NCBI GenBank assembly: GCA_030765065.1
Contig: CM060988.1
Location: forward strand, 176,741,065-176,805,064
Length of the DNA stretch: 64,000 nt
Reading direction: 5' to 3'
DNA from: Deroplatys truncata
Lineage: Eukaryota; Arthropoda; Insecta; Mantodea; Mantidae
Program-made: the position numbers and the translations under genes
In this document: in pieces, positions 6,463 through 60,760 of the stretch
Layout of the letters: each line of letters starts with the position of its first letter
Numbering within the stretch: the first letter of the stretch is position 1
Notes under the pieces: model-generated
The model's input: only the letters and a program-made list of their open reading frames with translations
Told to the model about the DNA's origin: nothing
Database searches by the model: none

Positions 6463-7671
6463 TCTGATGTTTTACACTCGCATGACTTTCTCTACCACGT
6501 TACGCTTATTAGTGTGTATACAAATTTCTCTTACGAAAGTTTATTTTCCTATCTACTTCATTACAATCGAGATGGACATTTCCAGAAATAGCTATATTAC
6601 ACATTTCGTTATAGATACAAAGGGAGTAGTGATAGTCAAATGTTTTAAGAACTGGACTTAAAATTCCAAACTCGTTCCATGACAACACAAGAAATGGCTG
6701 AAAATCGACAGGACTTAAAAAGAATGACCAATTATTGAACAATTCGAAACATTAACAACGGATATTTCGAAAATGGCTTATACCGCAAAATAAAGCTATT
6801 TAAAAAAATGTTGTGTTGCTTTACAAAGATCCACTTTTTTTTTTCCTGAAATAGTTTCATTCTATCGCTTAACGTTTACATAAACAAGATTATACAAAAT
6901 GCCTTCCGAATGTAGAACTCACAAGCTATTCCTAGAAAATGTCACATATAGATTCTTATTTGTCATGTAGATTGGTATTTTAATCAAAATTGTTAAAAGC
7001 CATTTTTTCAAAAAGTAAAAAATTTCGAAAAATGTAAAAGGTAGTTGGGGTGGGGGATTTTCTTGAAAAACCTTCCTGTCGCATCTTTGGAGGACATTGC
7101 GACGAAATGGCTATGGCACGAGGTTATCGGAAGGTCGGCGCCGAGCGGTCCGAGTAAACAACGATAAGATTCCTCCGGTTATATAAGCGAGAGCTCTCGC
7201 GGGCGGGCAGCCAGCCAATCGCGGGTTGACTGCGAGTTGACTGTGAGTTGAGCCGTGTCAGTCAGTGCGAGTTAACTTGCGTCGGTCGGCGAGTGAACAA
7301 GCGGGTTGGGGCAAGTTTCCCGAGCGACATTCTCCCAGCGAGTTGGTGACGGCTCCTGTGAGTGCAGCGGAGCGACGGTTGTGGAGGACATGTGTTTGAC
7401 TCCCAAGCGTAGTGAACCGTCCGGCGTGAAGAGGCTGCGTCACTAAGGAAGTGAAGTGAGGAGAACTGAAGTAGTTCATATCAGTGAAGTGAACCTTATA
7501 AGAACTTAATACAATGATAGTGAGAACTGAGAAAAGTGACAGTTGCAAAACTTGGACTTAATTACCAAGTTTGGTATTCATCAGGCTTTTCGTTTTTGAG
7601 TTATGCGTTCACAGGCATACATAATGACCTTTATCTAAAAATGCTTTTTTTTTTATTTTATACTTTCTCTA
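6463..7671 (+). mobile_element. Old HINE-like copy, interrupted by an LTR-like fossil and ended by another copy
   Basis: It starts TCTGATGTTTTACACTCGCA, continues to 7098, resumes at 7550 (ACTTAATTACCAAGTTTGGT) and stops at a T run near 7650-7671, where the next copy is inserted. It is clearly more diverged than the copy at 97. Confidence 0.75.
7099..7549 (+). mobile_element. LTR-like fossil, probably a solo LTR
   Basis: A GC-rich block of about 450 bp interrupts an old HINE-like copy, which joins in the expected order on both sides. It has a promoter-like core (TTATATAAGC at about 7180) and arthropod initiator-like TCAGT motifs further on. No coding part is present, so it appears to be a lone terminal repeat of a retroelement. 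The family is uncertain, and a flanking duplication was not clear. It looks moderately old. Confidence 0.4.
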
Positions 7672-7779
7672 CTACGTATAGTAAGTAGGGGAAGTATTGT
7701 ATTCAACCCAAAATTTCCATACCGAGATTTCACCGGAAATATGTTTTGAGACCCCTGAATCCTAAAAGAGCATTTCTGG

Positions 7780-7824
<45 letters not shown>

Positions 7825-8046
7825 TGTGTGTGTGTGTGAACAGCATAACTCAGAAACGAACAGTCGGATAAACACCAAACTTGGTATTTAGGTTCAGTAT
7901 CTTCCAGAGATGCGACACGATGGTTTTCAAGAAAATCCCCGCACCCCAGATTACCCTTTACATGGAACATTTTTCGAAAATTTTAATTTTCTGAAAAATG
8001 GCTCTAACGATTTTGATTAAAATATCATATGTTTAAGATATTTTCA
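7672..8046 (-). mobile_element. HINE-like element, half copy (left arm of a palindrome)
   Basis: It begins TACTTTCTCTACTACGTATA and ends abruptly after GTTTAAGATATTTTCA at 8046, where the opposite orientation starts. It holds a GT tract at about 7783-7838. It mirrors 8290-8670. Confidence 0.85.
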
Positions 8047-8670: not shown

Positions 8671-9225
8671 AATAAGCTTTCGTGTAAGAATAGTTTGCAT
8701 AATCACTAATAAACGACAACAGGGTAGACAAGTATGAGGGAAGTTGTTCGTAATTTTGCACCTGTGTAAGAAAATGAAGAAAGCTTAAATTCCACAAATA
8801 TGTTGAGATCGCATTAACAATTTGAGCCGTACAGCAGTTGCGCTAAAAGGCATATAATAGGGATGTTTTGAACACCTAATGTTACACCAGCAGTTCGGTG
8901 CTGCAAGTGAAGCAGTATATATACACACGTCTTACTTCTCTAACCTTAGAGAAATACTGGCGAGCACAAATTTGGAGAGATCACCGCTCTAAGGCATCTA
9001 TAAACTGGGAAAACCACAAACTACTGGATGTAGATCGATATATACCGGTGGAGGAAAGGGGTAGGAGTAGTGCTGCTGCTTTGCAAATGGGAAAGCCGAA
9101 TGTTACCTTCTTAACGGAACACCTTAGGCTTACATGCGAATGGGAGGCAAGTCCTAAAAGCAAACCAACCTTACCGACATGCGAATAATTCAAACTTCCT
9201 TCAGATTTTCATAATTTCCAGCTTA
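8671..9225. other. Intron sequence before array 1, nothing recognised
   Basis: A 96-residue open frame at 8898-9188 has no recognisable motif. No splice-flanked exon for TM1 or TM2 was found here. Confidence 0.5.
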
Positions 9226-10571
9226 GAAATATACCTACAGATAGATGTCCACGAATCTCATTGTTGTGGATGCAAGTTTCTTTGTGCTGTCATTCATCTA
9301 CTATGACGTGGATCTATCTGGGCGTGCTCCTCTGTACTTTTCTCATAGTCCATGCACTGATTACATTTGGGCGCAGCTAAGGTGATCGCGAATACCACTG
9401 AATACCACCACTACCGCAGATTCCTTCCCACTTCTGTTAATCTACTGCCTGGACGTGCTCCTCTCTACGACCTTAATAATGCATGCATTGATTACATTGT
9501 TTGGACAGGGCTGGATGTTCAGAGTAAGACTGTTGCAGATCTCTTCCTGCTGTCATACAGATTTGCCTGGGCGTGCTCTTCTGTAAGGCTTCATCTAGAT
9601 GTATTGATTACACTGTTTGGACAATGTGGTCAGCAATTCCACTCTTACAGGTTTTTGCCCGCTGCCGTCCATCTTCTGCCTAGCGTGCAAGCAATTTTTT
9701 GGGCAGCCAAAGATGTTCAGGAATCCTACTTTTATAAATTTCTTCCTGACGCCGTCCGTCTATCGTCCGATGTAAATCTGCCTGAACGTGCTCTTTTGAA
9801 CGGCATCCGTGGTTTGTCGATGGCATTGTTTGGGAAGCCAAGATGATGAAGAATCCAGGTTTCTTCTCGCTGTCATCCATCTTGTGCCTGGCGTGGATCT
9901 GCCTGGAAGCGCTCTTCTGAATGGTCTCCATTGTGCAAGTATTGTTCTAATATTTTGGGCAGCCGAGGTTGTTCAGGTTTCTTCCCGCTGCCTGAACGGC
10001 TCCCATCGTCATTTACTGCATGCATTGTTTGGGCATCCAAGGTAATCAAGAAAGGTACAGCTTTCTTCCCGCAGCCAACGTCCATCTACTACCTAACTTG
10101 ACAATCTGGAAGTACGGTCCTCTTGTCATGCAAGCAGTGCATGTGTGTTTTTAGACAGGCCAAAGTGAATATAAATCTTATTGTTGAAGGTTTCTTACTT
10201 CCACCTTTCATATACTGCCTCGAGTGGATCTGCCTTGGATGTGCTGTTTTCTACCCTGCATCATGCATGTATACATTACATTGTTTGGGTAGCCAAGGAT
10301 GTATTGCTTTCTTTCTGCTGCCGTTCATCTAGTCTCTGACATGGATATACCTGGATGTGCTTTTCCGTATGGCGCCCATTATGCATGTATTTAACTATTT
10401 GCATAGCCACGAATGTTCCGGAATCCTACTATTACAGGCTTCTTCCCGATGCCGCCTATCTACTCTCTGAAGTGGGTATACCTGGACATGCCCTTCTATA
10501 TGGTCTCCACAATACATACACTCAGTGCACTGTTCAAGCATTCGAGGTGATCATGAATTCCAATGTTACAG
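9226..10571 (+). repeat. Array 1: degenerate tandem copies of intron end, acceptor and 5' part of exon a
   Basis: Eleven diverged units precede exon a. Their exon-like parts begin near 9276, 9420, 9539, 9651, 9738, 9859, 9977, 10061, 10190, 10306 and 10438, and the true exon is the twelfth at 10572. Each unit holds a piece resembling the first ~80 bp of the exon (hallmarks TTTCTTCCCGCTGCCGTCCA and CTGGCGTGGATCTGCCTGGA). An intron piece follows (like GCATTGTTTGGGCAGCCAAG) and in most units an AG acceptor. Unit spacing runs from about 84 to 144 bp. Most units have stops or shifts in the receptor frame; the unit at 10438 is open over its exon-like part but 134 bp from the true acceptor, so out of frame. 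No unit extends to the exon donor. The copies look old, and some keep AG sites that could act as decoy acceptors. Confidence 0.88.
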
Positions 10572-10804
10572 GTTTCTTCCCGCTGCCGTCCATCTACTGC
10601 CTGGCGTGGATCTGCCTGGACGTGCTCTTTTGTACGGCCTCCATCATGCATCTCTGTACCATCAGCGTGGACCGATATTTGAGTCTGAGGTACCCCATGA
10701 AGTTCGGCCGCAACAAGACCAGGAGACGAGTCACCCTCAAGATCGCCTTCGTCTGGCTGCTCTCCATAGCCATGAGTTTGCCTCTCTGCCTCATGTATTC
10801 GCAG
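10572..10804 (+). CDS. 5-HT2: 5-HT2-type serotonin receptor, exon a (ECL1 end, TM3, ICL2, TM4)
   Basis: This exon encodes the TM3-TM4 part of a class A amine G-protein-coupled receptor of the plasma membrane. The translation contains CLAWICLDVLFCTASIMHL, holding the extracellular disulfide Cys and the amine-binding Asp of TM3. SVDRYLSLRYP follows with the DRY motif, then the basic loop KFGRNKTRRR, then TM4 (VWLLSIAMSLPLCLMYS). This pattern is typical of insect 5-HT2 receptors. The acceptor is TTACAG at 10566-10571 and the donor is CAG|GTAAGC at 10804/10805. The exon starts in phase 1 and ends in phase 0, matching the next exon. TM1 and TM2 are not found upstream, so earlier exons lie outside the window. 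Eleven degenerate copies of its acceptor and first ~80 bp lie directly upstream. The assignment to 5-HT2 is firm; the subtype (5-HT2A or 5-HT2B) is not resolved. Confidence 0.93.
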
Positions 10805-11861
10805 GTAAGCCTCTCAGTCTGTCACACCTACGTAGATTTTTATTGTTATTCAGATGACCAGCTTATCTCTCGTTATCTTATCCGACGTCTGCTTCGGTAG
10901 CAGGACTTCATCCGTAACTTGGCCATAATTATGCAGTCTAAGACAAAGTTTCTAGTTCTTCCGAATATTCCCCATATTCCAGTCCTTAATCCCTTCCTTG
11001 TCTGAGAAAACTTATCTCAGTCAATTAGACCTTCACTACTTTAGTGCATTTCCTATTGTAGACCATCCATTAGCGTTCTTTGTCTGCCTGTACGCATGAA
11101 CCATTCCAGAGTCTGAAAGTTATGACGCATTACAAATATGGTTGAAATCGACACACAGATTTTAAATGGAAAACCTACATAAAATGTGGATTTTTAGGCG
11201 AACCGCTGCATGCACGTAAGAGATACCAACCTTGTAAAGTGCTGGATCCCTAGGGAATATCCGAAACAGTTAATTTGGTTGTATCTGTTTGCTGTGGTTT
11301 TCTCGTGATTGATGAATTAAATAAATTGTGATTGCTTTTATTGGAAGTAATATTTAGTATTCAGCGGGCCCCAAACGGCAACAAAATGGCATTAAACTTA
11401 TAACCGATTACTTTCAGGGCCCACTTTATGAACCTTATGTTCCTCTTCATTTGTACTTTTCATTTTGAAACACACACTATTCTCAAAATTGTTTGTCCAT
11501 ACAATTCAATTTTATGACTATTGCTTTCGTTACTAATTTGCTTTATTTCTCTGTCAGCTGCCATCTCTTAGTTCTCTTAGCGGTCACAGTATGGTGGGGT
11601 CATAGTACGCGTGTATGTATGTTCCGCCTTCACTGTAGTGTCAAGTGATCTCGATATTTTTCCGCTGCGCACTACTGGTAAACGACCCGATCAAGGCTAC
11701 GTTTATCAGCTGTGTTATACCCGTATTGCGTCAGCTGCTACCTTTTGTTCTTCTGTAAGCACTAGAGTTTGTGCATCTCAAAGGTGATCGTTTATTCAAG
11801 ACATCCGTGTTGTGTGTGATTTGCTTTGATGCTGTTCTTGTCTATTTATTAGTCCATTGAA
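10805..11861. other. Intron a, unique-looking sequence
   Basis: Follows the exon a donor. No repeat family or coding segment recognised up to the IS630-like remnant at 11862. Confidence 0.5.
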
Positions 11862-18104: not shown

Positions 18105-18800
18105 GTGATTCTGACTCACTTTTTTATGCTGATTTCAGAACTGCTTTTAGTTTTTTTTTCTATCACGTACAGTTTTTTCACAATTTCACTTCAAAAACAT
18201 AGGGATATAAATATATTGCTTCCGCCACTACACATAAAATTGGGCTTGATGAAGCAATTTGTAAGGGCTCTACCACAGGATGGACCCTGCTTCAAGTGCC
18301 TTTCTAAGAAATTTCCCTTCATTACACAAGACAAATTAAAGGCTGGAATTTTTGTTGCTCCTCAAATAAAGAAATTGATGAAGGATGAAGATTGTGAGAA
18401 GACAATGAATGAGAGAGAAATAGAAGCATGGACCGCCTTCCGATCAGTTACTGAAAATTTCTTAGGCAATAACAAAGATCCTGATTACAAGGCCGTTGTC
18501 AAAACAATGTTGGAAAATTTCAAGATCTGTTGTAACATGAGTGTAAAGGTGCACTTTCTGCATTCACATATCGACTACTTTCCAGAAAATCTGGGACATT
18601 ATAGTGAAGAGCAGGGTGAACGTTTTCACCAAGATATTAAGGAAATGGAGAGGTGGTACCAGGGGAGATGCAATGAAACTATGATGGCCCACTACTGTTG
18701 GATGTTGAGGATGGACAGTCATCTTCAAGGATCTGCAAGGAAATCAAAGAAGAGAAAGTTTGAAAAAAAAATGAAACACTTTGGCTTCTTGTTTTGTTAA
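18105..18800 (+). CDS. Fragment of a recurrent repeat-associated protein of unknown function
   Basis: The open frame gives 231 residues. From about residue 31 it reads KHRDINILLPPLHIKLGLMK, then FVRALPQDGPCFKCLSKKFP, APQIKKLMKDEDCEKTMNER, EAWTAFRSVTENFLGNNKDP and VHFLHSHIDYFPENLGHYSE. It ends with EQGERFHQDIKEMERWYQGR and a Lys-rich tail. I recall similar sequences as unnamed, repeated proteins in many arthropods and in Hydra, but no domain name that I can state safely. The hydrophobic first ~30 residues look like unrelated intron sequence read through. An AATAAA lies shortly after the stop. It sits inside an intron of the receptor, in sense orientation, between old HINE-like pieces, so it is most likely part of a mobile element and not a host gene. 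Confidence 0.6.
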   Translation: MILTHFFMLISELLLVFFSITYSFFTISLQKHRDINILLPPLHIKLGLMKQFVRALPQDGPCFKCLSKKFPFITQDKLKAGIFVAPQIKKLMKDEDCEKTMNEREIEAWTAFRSVTENFLGNNKDPDYKAVVKTMLENFKICCNMSVKVHFLHSHIDYFPENLGHYSEEQGERFHQDIKEMERWYQGRCNETMMAHYCWMLRMDSHLQGSARKSKKRKFEKKMKHFGFLFC

Positions 18801-19425: not shown

Positions 19426-19934
19426 TTTTAGTTTTTAAGTGTATGACTAGTTGGAAGCCACATTCTTTCTTTATACTGATAAGATTCTTCTCTTTTTCTA
19501 CATTTGTGTTTGTGTTGCTGTAGATTTTCTGACAAATAACCATTCTCACGCTGATGGGCTTTACTGTATTTCTACATTACTCGCTTGCGCTGCAGGAGGA
19601 AATGTGTGACACACTCGACCCGCTCAACAACCTGATAGTTCCACTGTGTTTCTGCATAAATGAAGTCTATGTTGCTGACAGGCTCCATGTTTCTGCCTCA
19701 CTCGTGTATCTAGTGCTGATCGGTTCCAAAGTGTTTATGCATTATTTGAGTTTGTGCTGCTGGTCACGACTCCGGGATGGTACATGAAACCGCTCTACAA
19801 GACGATAGGATCCATTTTGCGTTTCTACGTTACTCGTGTTTGTTTTAAAGGACGAGCCTCCATGCTAGATCGAACGTACAAGATATTCGGCCTCTGCTGA
19901 GGCTGATTAGGTATCATTGTATGTTTCTACATTA

Positions 19935-21287
19935 CGATGGGCACTATTCATATTTTGAGCCTTGGCAACCCTGAATGTTGTACTGTCATCTGACGTTTCC
20001 AATGGAAAGTTTGACATTTTTTACCATAATCTACTTCAAACATTTTGTCAATAGAGCGTCATTTGTTTTGTTTACACTAACTTGAAAATTGTGTGTCAAC
20101 AAAAAGATGGAATTAACTCGTTAACATTTTTTACCATAATCTACTTCAAACATTTTGTCAATAGAGCGTCATTTGTTTTGTTTACACTAACTTGAAAATT
20201 GTGTCAACAAAAACATGGAATTAACTCGTGAAAATGTTCGTGCAATGATTTATTACGACTTTGACGTGGATTATCAAGACAAGAGTGCATCGATCAACTA
20301 ACTTCCACATTTGGCGACGAAGCTCCTCCTTTGCCACTGTGAAACGCTGGTATAACGAATTTAATCGTGGCGGCCGTTCGCTCAATGATGAAGGTCGTCC
20401 AAAACCAGTTGTGCCAGAAAACACTGATGCTGTGCAAAAACTAATAATGAAAGATCGTCATGCGACATATTGTGAGATTGGGGCAACCCTAGGCATTAGT
20501 TCCACTAGCATATTTAAAATATTGCATGTTTATTTAGCCGTGAAAAAGGTTTGCTCTGGTTGGATTCCACATAATTTGACGCAATCTCAAAAAGATGCTC
20601 CTGTCGATTGGTGTACAAAAATGCTCAAGAAATACAATGGCGGTGCCTCAAAACAGGTGATTGTAACAGGTGATGAATCATGGATCTACGCGTATGAGCC
20701 GGAACGTAAACAGCAGTCGACTGTATGGGTGTTTCAAGATGAAGCAAATCCAACAAAAGTTGTTCGCACTCGAAGAACGTCGAAGCAAATGGTCGCCTGC
20801 TTTTTCAACAAAACTGGCCATGTGGCAACAGTGCCTTTAGAGGAACGCAAAACGCTCAATGCCGAATGGTACACAACCATTTGTTTGCCGGAAGTCTTCG
20901 GTGAAGTAAGGAAAACCAACAAGAACCGTAGGATCGTTCATCAAGACAATGCCAGCGCACACACATCTCGTCTAAAAGAGTATTTGAAGGCTCAAAAATC
21001 GAATTGATGGGTCATCCGCCATTCAGTCCTGATTTGGCACCCAATGACCCAAGAATAAATTGCGTGGACAACGATTTACGTTGGCAGAAGAAGCCGTTGA
21101 TGCCTTCAAAAACCATGTTTTGGAGGTGTCTCAAGAAGACTGGAATAAATGCTTTGACAAATGGTTCAAACGGATGCAAAAGTGTATTAATCATAAAGGA
21201 GAATATTCTGAAAAACAATAAAGCAGTTTTCAATCAGAAATTACTTTGTTTTAATTATTAGGCTCAAAATATAAATAGTGCCCCTCG
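19935..21287 (+). mobile_element. mariner transposon inserted in array 2
   Basis: This 1353-bp Tc1/mariner element is flanked by TA on both sides (19933-19934 and 21288-21289). It has inverted ends: CGATGGGCACTATTCATATT on the left and the complement of CGAGGGGCACTATTTATATT on the right. The mariner-type transposase reads from the ATG at 20215 (MELTRENVRAMIYYDF), with VKRWYNEFNRG, the first catalytic Asp in VTGDESWIYAYEPE, the second in HQDNASAHTSR and the third in HPPFSPDLAPND, the DD34D pattern. The longest open stretch is 20261-21007. At least three small shifts break the frame: before GLSRQECIDQ, near the EAP segment, and just before HPPFSPDL. It is therefore inactive. A 110-bp tandem duplication covers the leader and start codon (20014-20123 and 20124-20233). 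Confidence 0.93.
20014..20233 (+). repeat. 110-bp tandem duplication inside the mariner leader
   Basis: The sequence from ACATTTTTTACCATAATC at 20014 repeats at 20124 with a period of 110 bp and very few differences. Each copy ends with an ATGGAATTAACTCG start context (20107 and 20215). Only the second ATG continues into transposase sequence. The duplication is younger than the general decay of the element, because its copies are nearly identical. Confidence 0.85.
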
Positions 21288-21919
21288 TATTAGTGTTTGT
21301 ATTTGCAGGACTATACTCTATGTTGAGTGGAACCCGTCAGCCTACATGCTGATAGGTTCCACTAGTGTTTCTGTATTACTCGTGTTTGTATTGCAGGACA
21401 AGGCTCCATAATGGTGAATGGAACCTATAAGGCCCAACATGGCTCTACATCTGATAAGTTTGACTGTGTTTTTCTACATTACCGATGTTTGTGTTTGCAG
21501 TTCCAGACTCCGTGCTCCTGGATGGAACCTATCAGGTCTCCAACATGGCTCGCATGCTGACAGGTTCCACTATGTATTTCTAGATAACTCGTGGTTGTGT
21601 TTGCAGGAAGAGTGTCCACACTTGTGGATGCAACCTATCAGATCCACAACTAGGTTCTACGTGGTGACAAGTTTTACTGAGAGTTTCTACATTATTCGTG
21701 TTTGTGTTTGCAGAAGTAGAGTCCATACTAGTGGATAGATCTTGTCAAGGCTCAGACACCACCTTATACTTTGTTGGGTTCCATTTAGCTTCTACATAAC
21801 GTGTGTTCGTGTTGCAGGACTACGATTCCCTGCTGATAGATAGTCTGTTAGATACCCGACCTGCTCTACAAGGTGATAGATTACACTGTGTTTCTACATT
21901 GCTCGTGTTTGTGTTGCAG

Positions 21920-22148
21920 GACCACGATTCCGTGCTGGTAGACGGAACCTGTCAGATACCCGACCCGCTCTACAAGCTGATAGGTTCCATTGTGTGCTTC
22001 TACATCCCGCTGGGAGTGATGCTCCTGACGTACGCCCTCACTGTGAGACTGCTGGCAGTGCAACAACAGAACCTGGGCGGGGGGCCCGGAGCAGCCCCTG
22101 CTGGGGGATGGTCTAGTGGCTGGCTGGGCCCCGGTACACCATCTCTCG
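21920..22148 (+). CDS. 5-HT2: 5-HT2-type serotonin receptor, exon b (ECL2, TM5, start of ICL3)
   Basis: This is the second receptor exon in the window. It encodes DHDSVLVDGTCQIPDPLYK, the second extracellular loop with the Cys that pairs with TM3. TM5 follows (LIGSIVCFYIPLGVMLLTYA) and then the cytoplasmic start of loop 3 (VRLLAVQQQNLGGG), rich in Gly, Pro and Ala. The acceptor is GTGTTGCAG ending at 21919 and the donor is CTCG|GTATGT at 22148/22149. It enters in phase 0 and leaves in phase 1, which fits exons a and c. The upstream intron end carries about nine degenerate copies of the acceptor plus exon start. The nearest copy, at 21818, is in frame and open into this exon, so a longer splice form is possible. 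The family assignment rests on the conserved loop 2 and TM5 sequence. Confidence 0.93.
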
Positions 22149-23710
22149 GTATGTCTCCTTGCACATCAATAAATGCTATGTCTCGATAAGCGAACTTCAC
22201 AAACTTGTAATTTTATATAATATAACTAGAGTTGTGTGCGTTTTTGTTAGTACTGTGTTCTGCGACGTTTTAGGTAGTGGGAAGGGTACACAGTATGCTG
22301 AATTCCTTCCGTGCGTGGCACGTAGAGTGGAAAACAGCCAACAGTCTTTCACTATCGTGCGTCTTATCCCCTCACATGCCTCATCCAAGTAAACATTACC
22401 TTCTTACAATACCTAAACCCTCACCGCTTAAAAGGGCTCCCCCACTCCCTAGCTAAACGTCGATGAGCAGACGTAGTTCTCTCTCTTATTGTCTAGGTGA
22501 TATCGCATGTACTCGAAGGAAGTTGCTCGTTTATGTAAGACAGCCTTAGAGATTCTTTCTGTGCTGCTTGCCTCAGTCATATGTTACCTTTTGTAGCTAC
22601 GTAAACTTGGAACTGCAAAAAGTGCACACAATTCCAGCAGTGCTTGTTTCGGTGTTTTCAATCAGATGTATTGCTTTGTATCTGGGTCGATCTCGTTTGC
22701 TTTTACAATTAAAATGTAAACAGTCTAGGAAACTCTGAAATTTAAACGCTTCTATGCCTGTCTACAGAGGCTTGTAATACCACGCACGAAATGAGGCATA
22801 CAGGGCACTGTCACTAAAACATGTGATGAGTAATCGCAGGATGACGCTAACGAGAAGCAGGCGCTTCTTGGGAGTGAAAGCTGTCACCAGCCTAAAATTT
22901 CTCGATCTCCACAGGGTTTGAAACGGAGACCGCGGCAGCCAGAGGCTAGTAACGCACTGCAACACGATGACGACCATTATTACCAACATCCACAACACTT
23001 CTAAAAAGGGCTCATAGAGATCTCTCCACGAGTGTAAATGAAAAAATGCTGACGCTGCACACTTGTGTGCCAATCCTATGCCGTGAATATTGACTTTCTC
23101 TCGACCATATTCTTTTTAACTGCCTAGTGAATTGCAGATACAATTAAATCATATTCCGCAAGGAAAGGCAGCAGAACAATTCACGCTGATTTGACACCAA
23201 CTTTTCTTTCTTTTTGCCTGGTTGCTCTGGTATGCCATTCACGTGGTAACTAAATTAAGATCGTTAACTTGGTATATATTTTAAATTTATGCGATGGAAT
23301 TAAGAGCCAATTACGGCACTGTTGCAACTTTAATGAGGTGCAATTATACCGAGCGTTATCCCATTCACGGGTTGCGGAGGGGGAGAGAGGGAGGAGGCAT
23401 TATTCTCTACTTGGAAAATTTCTTCCTCCCAACCACACGCGAGTTTCCTCCCCTCCCCCTATTCCAATATCTAGATCTGAATGTGTTTCACTTCTGAACT
23501 AGGAATTGGTGTTACAAACTTGAACCAAAGGGACACAAGATGAACTCTTGGCTGATATACAAGCTGTCTTCTTTTGTGCTCCACACTTGGGTTTCGGTTT
23601 GGTTTCTTCCCTCATAGTGATACAAATACCTTAGATAGACTATCTTCCTTTGCGACTTTTTATCAAATTTTATCTAACTTAGACTTTGCTATTTACATGC
23701 ATTTGTACAT
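22149..23710. other. Intron b, mostly unrecognised
   Basis: Starts at the GTATGT donor. The open frames at 22159-22392 and 23073-22762 (minus) have no family resemblance. No third array of exon copies is visible. Confidence 0.45.
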
Positions 23711-26913: not shown

Positions 26914-27710
26914 TCTGATGTGTTACACTCACATGACTTTCTTTACTCTTGTACAAACTATTTTTACAAACGCTCATTCTCCATATGCTTCATGTTAATA
27001 GAGATATCGCGATGTTAATCTTATTGCTAATTTTCTTGTAGATGCAAGGGGAATTGGGAGGCTTTAAGCGATAGTCAAATATTTTAAGAGCCGGTTGCTA
27101 TGTGGAGTATTCCATTCTCTTTGCATTACCAGGACAAAAAAAAATGAATAACGAATTTGAGAAATGGTTCATTCAACAAAAAAAAAAAAAACTGTATATG
27201 ACATAAATTGTGTATTTTAACGCGATCTACATTTTATGTGTAGTAAAATTTTGTCTATCTCTTATGGTTTACCACTTATGCAAAAGTCGTTCACAATGAA
27301 GAATACTTTTGGAGACATTCCCAGAAAATTCGAGGTATACATTTTATTTGTCATGAAAATATCTTAAACATATGATATCTTAATCAAAATCGTTAGAGCA
27401 TTTCTGAGAAAATTAAAATTTTCGAAAAATGTTCCATGTAAAGGGTAATCTGGGGTGGGGGAATTTTCTTGAAAACCTTCGTGTCGCATCTCTGGAAGAT
27501 ACTGAACCTAAATACCAAGTTTGGTGCTTATCCGACTGTTCGTTTCTGAGTTATGCTGTTCACAGACAGACACACACACGGACATGTTTTCAAAAATGCT
27601 TTTTTTGGATGCATGGGGTCTCAAAACAAGTATTTCCGGTGAAATCTCGGTATCGAATTTTTGGGTAGAATACAATACTTCCCCTACTTAGTATACGTAG
27701 TAGAGAAAAT
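26914..27710 (+). mobile_element. HINE-like element, full-length copy in intron c
   Basis: It runs from TCTGATGTGTTACACTCACA to ACGTAGTAGAGAAAAT, close to the consensus. A short CA tract lies near 27568, and A runs flank both ends. Confidence 0.85.
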
Positions 27711-41394: not shown

Positions 41395-41504
41395 CCAGGA
41401 AATTAAAGACATGCATTTTATTTCATGCAAATATCTTAAACATATAGTATTTTAATCAAAATCATTACAGAAATTCTTGAGAAAATCAAAGGTATTAAAA
41501 AAAA

Positions 41505-42431
41505 TCTTATGTGTTACACTCCCATAACTTTCTCTACTCTTGTACAACCTAATTTTACAAACGCCTATTCTCCATATGCTTCATGTTAATCGAGATATCG
41601 AGATGTCAATCTTATTGGTAATTTTCTTGTAGATGCAAGCAAAATATGGTAGCTTTTAAGCGATAGTCAAATATTTTAACACTGGTTGCTATGTGACGCA
41701 TTCCATTCTCTTTGCATGTCCAGGACATAAAAAAATCTGATGTGTTACACTCACATGACTTTCTCTACTCTTGTACAAACTATTTTTACAAACGCTTATT
41801 CTCCATATGCTTCATGTTAATCGAGATATCGAGATGTCAATCTTATTGGTAATTTTCTTGTAGATGCAAGGGGAATATGGTAGGTTTTAAGCGATAGTCA
41901 AATATTTTAACGCTGGTTGCTATGTGGCGCATTCCATTCTCTTTGCATGTCCAGGACATAAAAAAAATGAATAACGAATTTGAGAAAAAGTATAAGTATT
42001 GGAAAATTTAAGGGAATAACAAGCAATATCTCGAAAACGGTTCACTCAACAAAAGAAATGTATATGACATAAGTTGTGTATTTTAACGCGATCTACATTT
42101 TTTGTGTAGTAAAATTTTGTCTATCTCTTATGGTTTACCAGTTATGCAAAAGTCGTTCACAATGAAGAATACTTTTGGAGACATTCCCAGGAAATTCGAG
42201 ATATACATATCATTTTTCATGACATTACTCTAAACATATGATATTTTCATCAAAATCGTTAGAGCCATTTTTGAGAAAATTAAAATTTTCGAAAAATCTT
42301 CCATGTAAAGGGTAGTCTGGGGTGAGGGGATTTTCTTGAAAACCTTCGTGTCGCATCTCTGGAAGATACTGAACCTAAATACCAAGTTTGGTGCTTATCC
42401 GATTGTTCGTTTTTGAGTTATGCTGTTCACA

Positions 42432-42469
<38 letters not shown>

Positions 42470-42595
42470 TGTTTCCAAAAATGCTTTTTTTGGATTCAGG
42501 AGGTCTCAAAACGTGTATTTCCGGTGAAATCTCGGTATCGAATTTTTGGGTGGAATGCAATACTTCCCCTACTTACTATACGTAGTAGAGAAAGT
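41505..42595 (+). mobile_element. HINE-like element with its first ~230 bp duplicated in tandem
   Basis: 41505-41735 repeats the first part of the full copy 41736-42595 nearly exactly. The junction lies in an A run after CAGGACATAAAAAAA. The full copy has a CA tract at 42432-42465 and ends ACGTAGTAGAGAAAGT. Confidence 0.85.
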
Positions 42596-42730
42596 AAAAA
42601 ACTTCTTGTAAAAGGTAGTGAACTTAAATACCAACCTTGGTATCTATCTGACATTTCGTTTGAGTAATGCTTGTTCACAGACACACATACTTGGAACTTT
42701 TTCTAAAACTGCTTAATAGGCAGTGGAGAA

Positions 42731-43793: not shown

Positions 43794-44621
43794 ACTTTCT
43801 CTACTACGTACAGTAAGTAGGGGAAGTATTGTATTCCGCTCAAAAATTCGATACCGAGATTTCACTGGAAATACATGTTTTGAGACCCCATGAATCCAAA
43901 AAAAGCATTTTTGGAAACTTGTCCGTGTGTGTGTCTGTGAACAACATAACTCAGAAACGAACAGTCGGATAAACACCAAACTTGGTATTTAGTTTCAGTA
44001 TCTTCGAGAGATGCGACACGAAGGTTTTCAAGAAAATCCCCCCACCCCAGACTACCCTTTACATGGAAGAGTTTTCGAAAATTTTAATTTTCTCAAAAAT
44101 GGCTCTAACGATTTTGATTAAAATATCATATATTGTCATGACAAATGAAATGTATATCTCGAATTTTCTGGGAATGTCTCCAAAAGTGTTCTTCATTGTG
44201 AACGACTTTTGCATAACTGGTAAACCATAAGAGATAGACAAAATTTTACTACACAAAAAATGTAGATCACATTAAAATACGCAATTTATGTCATATACAG
44301 TTTTTTTGTTGAGTGAACCGTTTTCGAGATATTGCTTGTTATTCCCTTAAATTTTCCAATACTTACACTTTTTCTCATATTCGTTATTCATTTTTTTATG
44401 TCCTGGACATGCAAAGAGAATGGAACACTCCACATAGCAACCAGCGCTTAAAATATTTGACTATCGCTTAAAGCCTACCAATTCCTCTTGCATCTACAAG
44501 AAAATGAGCAATAAGATTAACATTTTGATATCTCGATTAACATGAAGCATAAGGAGAATAAGCGTTTGTAAAAATAGTTTGTACAAGAGTAGAGAAAGCC
44601 ATGTGAGTGTAACACATCAGA
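43794..44621 (-). mobile_element. HINE-like element, full-length copy
   Basis: Runs from ACTTTCTCTACTACGTACAG to GTGAGTGTAACACATCAGA, close to consensus with a short GT stretch. It is inserted in a T run of an older fragment (about 43691-43793 and 44627-44670). Confidence 0.85.
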
Positions 44622-56316: not shown

Positions 56317-56559
56317 TACTTCATTTTAATCCAATAAACCTTTCAAGAAAAGCTACATTACACATTTCGCTATAGATACGCTATACGCTGGCCTTAAAAT
56401 TCCATACTCCTTCCACGTTATTCCGAGAAGCAACTGATAATCGCCTTTAAAAGAATGGCTAAGTATTGAACAAATCGAACCATTAATAACAGATATCTCG
56501 AAAATGTCTTACGTCACAAGAAAAAGTTGTTTGAAATAAATAAAAGATATCTACTTTTT

Positions 56560-57449
56560 ACTTTCTCTACTACGTATAGTAAGTAGGGGAAGTATTGCAT
56601 TCCACCCAAAAATTCGATACCGAGATTTCGCCGGAAATACATGTTTTGAGACCTCCTGAATCCAAAAAAAGCATTTTTGGAAACATGTCCGTGTGTGTGT
56701 CTGTGTGTGTGTGTGTCTGTGTGTGTGTCTGTGTGTGTGTGTGTCTGTGTGTCTGTGAACAGCATAACTCAAAAACGAACAGTCGGATAAGCACCAAACT
56801 TGGTATTTAGGTTCAGTATCTTCCAGAGATGCGACACGAAGGTTTTCAAGAAAATCCCCCCACCCCAGACTACCCTTTACATGGAAGATTTTTCGAAAAT
56901 TTTAATTTTCTCAAAAATGGCTCTAACGATTTTGATGAAAATATCATATGTTTAAGATAATGTCATGGGAAATGAAATGTATATCTCGAATTTTCTGGGA
57001 ATGTCTCCAAAAGTATTCTTCATTGTGAACGACTTTTGCATAACTGGTAAACCATAAGAGATAGACAAAATTTTACTACACAAAAAATGTAGATCGCGTT
57101 AAAATACACAACTTATGTCATATACATTTCTTTTGTTGAGTGAACCGTTTTCGAGATATTGCTTGTTATTTCCTTAAATTTTCCAATACTTATACTTTTT
57201 CTCAAATGCGTTATTCATTTTTTTTATGTCCTGGACATGCAAAGAGAATGGAATGCGCCACATAGCAACCAGCGTTAAAATATTTGACTATCGCTTAAAA
57301 GCTACCATATTTCCCTTGCATCTACAAGAAAATTACCAATAAGATTGACATCTCGATATCTCGATTAACATGACGCATATGGAGAATAGGCGTTTGTAAA
57401 ATTAGATTGTACAAGAGTAGAGAAAGTCATGTGAGTGTAACACATCAGA
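56560..57449 (-). mobile_element. HINE-like element, longest full copy (890 bp)
   Basis: Runs from ACTTTCTCTACTACGTATAG to GTGAGTGTAACACATCAGA. The microsatellite is a mixed GT and CTGT tract at about 56690-56757. T runs flank it, with AGATATCTAC on one side and ATGTAGTACG on the other, as expected for a host copy split at its T run. Confidence 0.88.
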
Positions 57450-59680: not shown

Positions 59681-60524
59681 TGAATGTATTAAATTATTAT
59701 TCAAATAAAATGAGTGTTAGTAAGGCAGTAAAAGAAACAGCTAAGGCTACAAGGATATTCAGAAACTATAGTGTATAGGATAAAAAATCTGATGTGTTAC
59801 ACTCACATGACTTTCTCTACTCTTGTACAAACTATTTTTACACACGCTTATTCTCCATCTACTTCATGTTAATCGAGATAAACATTTGCAGACTCTATCT
59901 TATTGCTAATTTTCTTGTAGATGTAAGGGGAATATATACTTACAAGGGCAATATAGAAATACAGTAGCCTTTAATCACATACATATCTCTTAATAGCTGG
60001 TTGCTAGGTGCAGCACCATTCCCTTTGCCACAGATTAATACTCTTTGCATATCCAAGACAAAAAAAATGAATAACGAATTCCCATTTGAGAAAATAAGTA
60101 TTGAAAAATTTAAGGGAATAACAAGCAATATCTCGAAAATGGTTCACTCAACAACAATGTATATGACATGAATTGTGTATTTTAACGCGATCTACATTTT
60201 TTGTGTAGTAAAATTTTGTCTATCTCTTATGGTTTACCAGTTAGGCAAAAGTGGTTCACAATGAAAAATACTTTTGGAGACATTCCCAGAAAATTCAAGA
60301 TATACATTTTATTTGTCATGAAAATATCTTAAACATATGATATTTTAATCAAAATTGTTAGTCATTTTTGAGAAAATTAAAATTTTCGACAAAATCTTCC
60401 ATGTAAAGGGTAATTTGGGGTGGGGGATTTTCTTGAAAACCTTTGCGTCGCATCTCTGGAAGATACTGAACCTAAATACCAAGTTTGGTGTTTATCCGAC
60501 TGTTCGTTTCTGAGTTATGCTGTT

Positions 60525-60558
<34 letters not shown>

Positions 60559-60760
60559 CATGTTTCCAAAAATACTTTTTTTGGATTCAGGGGTCTCAAA
60601 ACATGTATTTCCGGTGAAACCTCGGTATTGAATTTTTGGGTGGAATACAATACTTCCCCTACTTACTATACGTAGTAGAGAAAGTAAAAAAGAAAGGAAT
60701 AAAAGGAAAGGGTTAGGGGAAACAAAAAGCACACCAAGTTAACACAATAACTTTAAAAGA
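59681..60760 (+). mobile_element. Helix-turn-helix transposase fragment, copy A, interrupted by a HINE-like element
   Basis: The + strand encodes NKMSVSKAVKETAKATRIF and a basic stretch, similar to the N-terminal helix-turn-helix of DDE transposases (KAxEATGVS-type). The copy stops at 59787 at an A run, where the HINE-like element 59788-60686 is inserted. It resumes at 60687 with AAAGGAATAAAAGGAAAGGG and ends near AACACAATAACTTTAAAAG. An uninterrupted copy lies at 61369-61562. Confidence 0.6.
59788..60686 (+). mobile_element. HINE-like element, full-length copy with a known empty site
   Basis: Runs from TCTGATGTGTTACACTCACA to ACGTAGTAGAGAAAGT, with a CA tract at 60527-60554. It contains the CCATTCCCTTTGCCACAGAT variant also found at 8047. 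The paralogous sequence at 61369-61562 lacks it. Confidence 0.88.

Follow-up and report, generated by a model that had tools for sequence, protein, structure and literature searches.

The window analysed here is a stretch of 64,000 nucleotides from the mantis Deroplatys truncata (contig CM060988.1 of the GenBank assembly GCA_030765065.1), and the positions given below are counted from its first letter. On its + strand lies an insect 5-HT2B-type serotonin receptor gene, of which the window holds the portion from TM3 to the end. Four exons, a, b, b2 and c, were placed by tblastn with the proteins of Periplaneta, Bacillus rossius and Anabrus. These exons and the junction unit of exon a are as follows.

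10518-10651: functional junction unit of exon a (Y)
10572-10804, + strand: exon a (TM3-TM4), found by tblastn, with its acceptor AG ending at 10571 and a donor GT at 10805
21920-22148, + strand: exon b (ECL2 to TM5), phase 0, found by tblastn with insect 5-HT2B, with a donor GT at 22149
from 26245, + strand: exon b2, found by tblastn
from about 34083, + strand: exon c, found by tblastn

The 7tm_1 match of exon b lies under the curated cut-off. In a protein tree of 16 rows, none of which comes from a mantis, the receptor of the window is the sister of the pair formed by Periplaneta and Zootermopsis, and this grouping has a support of 98/97, from which the receptor is inferred to belong to the cockroach/termite/mantis lineage.

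The intron upstream of exon b ends in an array of copies of the exon b junction, which we call array 2. A search with nhmmer, whose query consisted of the 30 last bases of the intron and the start of exon b, detects nine upstream copies of this junction within 19571-21891, with E values from 4e-18 to 2e-4. When the region was shuffled 200 times with its dinucleotides preserved, no shuffle reached the weakest real score (the best shuffled score is 5.7 bits, versus 14.9 bits), which bears out the first-pass annotation of this DNA, where about nine copies had been counted before exon b. Two further, decayed copies (U0 and U1b) were located by alignment alone. Tandem Repeats Finder reports array 2 in parts. 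The units were cut as listed here, together with the transposon that interrupts one of them; the bases 19561-19568 fall between the cuts of U0 and U1.

19494-19560, + strand: U0, decayed first unit, TAG ending at 19523, found by alignment only
19569-19641, + strand: U1, acceptor ending at 19595, found by the junction search
19642-19733, + strand: U1b, decayed, AG of the acceptor lost, found by alignment only
19734-19821, + strand: U2, AG of the acceptor lost, found by the junction search
19822-19921, + strand: U3, weakened acceptor with AAAG ending at 19850, found by the junction search
19922-19934 (5' part) and 21290-21365 (3' part), + strand: U4, split by the mariner, acceptor ending at 21308
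19935-21287, + strand: dead mariner-type transposon within U4, with a TA target duplication and a broken transposase frame
21366-21471, + strand: U5, acceptor ending at 21396, found by the junction search
21472-21576, + strand: U6, acceptor ending at 21500, found by the junction search
21577-21682, + strand: U7, acceptor ending at 21606, found by the junction search
21683-21788, + strand: U8, acceptor ending at 21713, found by the junction search
21789-21889, + strand: U9, acceptor AG ending at 21817, found by the junction search
21890-21995, + strand: X, functional junction unit (30 last intron bases and start of exon b), AG at 21918-21919

A near-constant period of about 104 bp had been attributed to the whole array. 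This description fits the part below the mariner, where U5-U9 are 101-106 bp long, and not the part above it, where the lengths of U0-U3 range from 67 to 100 bp with the cuts that were chosen; the split unit U4 amounts to 89 bp. The mariner itself is 1,353 bp long and is flanked by TA at both ends, its inverted repeats are identical at 26 of 32 positions, and its match to the Transposase_1 domain is slightly over the curated cut-off, so that the element has the TA duplication, the inverted repeats and the DDE transposase of its class. All three of its frames are broken as they stand. Array 2 continues on the far side of the insertion, which is absent from the first-pass annotation. The mariner contains an internal tandem duplication of 110 bp (20014-20229, 97% matches). 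The intron just upstream of array 2 also holds an open frame of 231 codons (18105-18800), which has no Pfam match at E 0.01 and is perhaps derived from a mobile element.

Exon a is preceded by a similar structure, array 1.

9222-10517, + strand: array 1, with V1-V11 as its eleven upstream copies of the exon a junction

Here the junction search gives ten upstream copies that are significant, with E values from 7e-17 to 7e-6, and one that is heavily decayed, and with the exon a query, too, none of 200 shuffles reached the weakest real score. The cut units are 74-136 bp long, and the spacing from acceptor to acceptor is 112-143 bp in 9 of the 11. Array 1 is not reported by Tandem Repeats Finder. 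The consensus of its units has no relation to that of array 2. The proposal that one gene carries two unrelated arrays, each made of intron end, acceptor and exon start, is confirmed for both of them. Each consists of many head-to-tail copies of one unit, as minisatellites do, and in each the segment multiplied in tandem straddles the acceptor; its length is about 130 bp in array 1 and about 104 bp in array 2. In both arrays the duplication crosses the exon-intron boundary, the repeated unit holds a splice site at the exon edge, in an IFI6-like manner, and no donor is common to the units. The AG is present in its alignment column in 8 of 11 units per array, and in 9 of 11 if a shift of one or two bases is allowed. 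From the conserved protein sequence, the functional acceptor is assumed to be the last, exon-proximal one. We note that the predicted protein P0008 from Timema has 49 additional residues precisely at the junction between exon a and exon b; by eye this insert has no relation to the array units, and it is perhaps an artefact of the gene model.

How unusual these arrays are was assessed by a scan in which 983 segments of 130 bp, covering the window, were each compared with the 1.8 kb on either side, same-strand matches being counted. Three or more nearby matches were obtained for 33 segments, 32 of which are inside the two arrays, the remaining one being at 41406. Two matches were obtained for eighteen further segments (one in array 1, seventeen elsewhere). 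The scan finds no array at exons b2 and c. The segment at 41406 adjoins a two-copy tandem repeat of 231 bp (41498-41966, 94% matches). Both arrays terminate within the first ~85 nt of an exon, and two of the four exons found in the window have one; according to a post hoc calculation in which arrays may fall anywhere, one array has a chance of roughly 0.6% of ending no more than about 90 bases from any one of the four exon starts. Since these are the sole deep arrays in the window scan and both end in an exon, the link between arrays and acceptors does not look like chance, and it deserves to be taken seriously, even though it is based on two arrays.

The first-pass annotation had also considered that the units might align better to an unrelated dispersed repeat than to exon b. 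This check does not refute the proposal: outside the arrays and the exons neither query has a match with E below 12, and the two weak matches on the minus strand (E 0.31 and 0.73) are located within array 2 and exon b. A scan of viral contigs gave no relative. Tandem arrays can be assembled wrongly, and one may ask whether what we describe is an artefact of the assembly, or an unrelated dispersed repeat that lies there by chance. However, the units of array 2 differ from one another by 24-55%, which is far above read error, one of them contains a mariner with its target duplication, and there are no copies elsewhere in the window, so we regard both of these explanations as extremely improbable. 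Regarding repeats in general, a dispersed repeat does occur in the window, on both strands (2043-2312, 7653-7982, 27417-27668, 42326-42667, 43862-44083, 56551-56901, 60414-60617 and others). It has a reading frame, NFRKxFHVKGxLGWGDFLENLRVASLEDTEPKYQVWCLSDCSFLSYAV, which is partial in some copies and gives three weak unnamed matches in a protein search.

The mean distance between the units and the functional unit is.294 in array 2 and.317 in array 1, and the mean distance from unit to unit is.389 and.381, respectively; both arrays are old, and their ages look similar. Just 5 of the 11 units in each array have the functional copy as their closest relative, so the star shape is imperfect. U4-U8 share certain differences from exon b. 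The trees of the units have low support, and in these trees the functional copies sit on short branches. It had been suggested that greater similarity between neighbouring units would indicate slippage. There is no order effect in array 2 (Mantel r of -0.09 and 0.02) and a trend that is weak at best in array 1 (r of 0.03 and 0.21, the latter being matched in 481 of 5000 permutations). Ongoing slippage or recent homogenisation is rejected for array 2 on this basis, and the weak trend is all that can be said for it in array 1.

Further information is provided by the alignment columns in which 50% or more of the units share a base that differs from the functional copy. In array 1 such columns amount to 17 of 54 on the intron side versus 2 of 80 on the exon side, which suggests that the exon is held while the intron side drifts, and that the units keep the junction in an earlier form. 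In array 2 they amount to nine of 76 exon columns (five of the nine are third codon positions) and to 1 of 30 intron columns. The divergence of the array 2 units at the three codon positions is.356,.329 and.373; the positions diverge alike, and coding constraint on these units is therefore rejected. In array 1 the corresponding values are.147,.237 and.283, position 1 being the least divergent and position 2 intermediate, a pattern which may come from base composition. The results on codon positions, trees and column permutations were obtained with an alignment of array 2 without the three U4 bases at the mariner junction. These data do not support the earlier idea that the arrays copy parts of the extracellular face of the receptor with its cysteines: the TGT codon of the loop-2 cysteine is kept, in the alignment, in just 2 of the 6 units U4-U9, and the codon-position signature of coding constraint is lacking in array 2.

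The edges of the parent segment of array 2 give a clue to its origin. They are marked by an 8-bp direct repeat.

21892-21899, + strand: intron copy of TTCTACAT
21998-22005, + strand: exon copy of TTCTACAT, which codes for F-Y-I of TM5, presumed seed of the duplication

These two copies, which bound the parent segment, are 106 bp apart, a distance that agrees with the period of the array (101-106 bp in U5-U9). The 8-mer is exact in 6 of the 11 upstream units, including the first (at 19496), and occurs three more times in the rest of the window; U0 begins at this intronic copy of its own. F-Y-I is present, as far as could be read, in all the insect alignments that were printed (at most 45), and since this stretch of TM5 is common to insect receptors, the exon copy of the 8-mer predates array 2.

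We consider that both arrays are probably old minisatellites that span the junction, produced by ordinary tandem duplication and tolerated by splicing, which is the best explanation of the data taken together. The first duplication in array 2 would have resulted from polymerase slippage, or from unequal exchange, between the two 8-mers, and the later copies from unequal exchange. The upstream copies have since decayed, and the functional copy in the exon has been maintained. The array would be tolerated provided the acceptor nearest the donor of the exon stays in use, as exon definition would lead one to expect in a gene whose introns are long; the surplus copies would then be spliced out as intron. 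The mariner would have split array 2 afterwards. The seed repeat can be demonstrated for array 2 alone, because decay has gone too far at the left edge of array 1. The first-pass annotation had invoked a local or gene-specific mechanism that reiterates acceptors; such a special mechanism is not supported, and duplication between 8-bp direct repeats accounts for array 2. It is important to note that pure neutrality does not explain everything: it fails to account for the well-kept acceptor block of array 2, and it leaves unexplained why the deep arrays are at acceptors and none is in the larger intron space.

An unexpected feature of array 2 is its acceptor block, which has changed two to three times less than the exon-derived part (18 mismatches out of 176 versus 127 out of 426 in U4-U9, 25 out of 141 versus 100 out of 271 in U0-U3). 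According to an approximate matrix, the acceptors of U4-U9 rank between the 98.3 and 99.8 percentiles of the AGs of the window, and the true site is at 99.2, while the nine acceptors that remain in array 1 are spread between the 42nd and 99th percentiles. Array 2 could be a device with several acceptors whose surplus 3' splice sites are maintained by selection, either because the acceptor of U9 is an alternative that preserves the frame, or because the sites are decoys that divert splicing towards unproductive mRNA, or because they form a landing pad that aids the recognition of exon b. The block from -30 to -1 evolves at 0.54 of the expectation adjusted for base composition, which is the lowest value among the 106 circular positions, and in the alignment without the three U4 bases its conservation was reached in 1 of 10000 column permutations. 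When the decay of U4-U9 is simulated at the rate of the exon part, the chance of retaining acceptors of that strength is about 5e-5 to 2e-4; for the whole of array 2, 7 of 11 units have a strength in the top 2%, versus.23 per unit under the null (binomial tail.005). Use of the U9 acceptor (21817) would lengthen exon b by 102 nt, that is, 34 stop-free codons in frame, in loop 2. In array 1, the loss of the AG in 2 of 11 units is under the 44% that was simulated.

On the contrary, array 1 has no conserved acceptor block (observed/expected ratio of 1.07, with 88 of 134 shifts equal or lower), and in array 2 the block is T-rich, T being the slowest-changing base overall, so that a mutational cold spot in the T-rich tract is a plain alternative to selection. 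The statistics are also sensitive to what is assumed: half the decay rate lifts the chance of the strength observed in U4-U9 to 0.02, and the circular shifts are not independent of one another. The AG pair itself is unexceptional, since as many units keep 21 of the 105 neighbouring base pairs in array 2, and 17 of 133 in array 1. In array 2 the AG has been lost in 2 of 11 units, and after each of the other eight upstream AGs a stop is met within 189 nt (in array 1, this is so for 9 of 9, within 306 nt). We conclude that selection on the surplus acceptors of array 2 is possible but unproven, and on balance rather unlikely. The complete version of this proposal, in which array 2 would be a natural splicing device with some ten 3' splice sites in tandem, of which selection keeps six at the strength of the real site while the exon-derived parts rot, appears slightly less likely still.

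A different function for some of the units would be that of alternative cassette exons, of either the productive or the poison kind, since every unit began as an acceptor followed by exon-like sequence. Donor-like GTs occupy equivalent positions of the array 1 unit at 9382, 10042 and 10547 (percentiles 98.1-98.5), and U7 (92.5) and U9 (97.8) of array 2 likewise share the position of a GT. In U9, a C-to-G change at 21873, relative to exon b, creates the donor-like AAG/GTGATA (97.8 percentile). The best candidate for a small extra exon, judging from its sequence, is bracketed by good splice sites in V11.

10438-10546, + strand: V11 stretch between an acceptor (98.0) and the donor-like GT at 10547 (98.1), 109 nt, free of stops

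However, a stretch of 109 nt would shift the frame, and the recurrent GT of array 1 sits in the intron part of the unit and is also found just before exon a. The GT at 10547 is about 25 bases before the end of the acceptor of exon a itself. Array 2 has 2 of its 94 GTs in the top 5% and array 1 has 6 of its 83, about as expected by chance. When 18 upstream units were tested for their best mini-exon, 9 of these mini-exons contained a stop, and the codon positions of array 2 diverge alike, as described above. The best 120 of 545 hits to related proteins were also tested, and at the score that was set neither exon start is duplicated in any of them. Cassette exons are therefore a very unlikely reading of the arrays. 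A Dscam-like exon cluster was rejected: there are no common donors, the AG is lost in 4 of 22 units and stops occur in 9 of 18. A few units of array 1 could nevertheless pass for small exons, and a single small or poison exon, V11 being the foremost candidate, may exist.

The arrays are real and unusual, and they are most likely the product of ordinary tandem duplication tolerated by splicing, even though array 2 behaves as though its spare acceptors mattered. The choice of the spliceosome among equally strong acceptors is usually studied with minigenes that are built for the purpose. Here, as many as ten homologous acceptors precede one exon of a natural gene and show graded decay, and array 1, whose sites are weaker, is a built-in contrast to array 2. 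If selection holds the surplus acceptors, tandem arrays are a route by which the number of splice sites can evolve; if the device existed as such, it could tune the output of full-length receptor or insert 34 residues in the ligand-facing loop. If there is no selection, the arrays are a fossil record of the past sequence of the junction, and they indicate that duplication anchored in an exon is tolerated on the acceptor side.

Regarding known systems, internal gene duplications are said to have given new introns in the work of Gao and Lynch in 2009 and of Hellsten in 2011, reportedly with one or two copies in most cases. Like the duplications of those studies, the arrays are short intragenic tandem duplications that copy splice signals; no gain of an intron is shown here. 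Tandem duplication has been reviewed as a source of introns (PMC3443670). In the RdRp gene of potato, a single tandem duplication of the 3' side of an intron and the 5' side of the next exon made a new intron (PMC4974935). The duplications span an intron-exon boundary in that gene and in ours; however, in the potato gene there was one duplication, whose upstream copy gave the donor, whereas here there are about ten copies, twice in one gene, and no common donor.

A human minisatellite described in a 1995 paper, which PMC2572611 and PMC2915984 cite, supplies several splice donors, judging from the title. As far as the title tells, it resembles the present arrays in that a tandem repeat gives several splice sites to one transcript; the difference is that it acts on the donor side, whereas the arrays are on the acceptor side, with units of ~104 and ~130 bp and strong decay. 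The unit of that minisatellite is reportedly 26 bp long.

In the honeybee, 5-HT2 is alternatively spliced, and when the exon for TM3-TM4 (exon III, 225 bp) is skipped a shorter receptor results (PMC3855752). This is also alternative splicing of an insect 5-HT2, but it consists in exon skipping, and the portion of that paper available to us mentions no array. In the open-licence literature we found no description of acceptor arrays, while single duplications that span a junction are published; PMC7605655 and PMC3152781 yielded no closer case. The present arrays differ from those cases by the number of copies, by their position on the acceptor side, by the occurrence of two arrays in one gene and by the strength that the acceptors of array 2 have kept.
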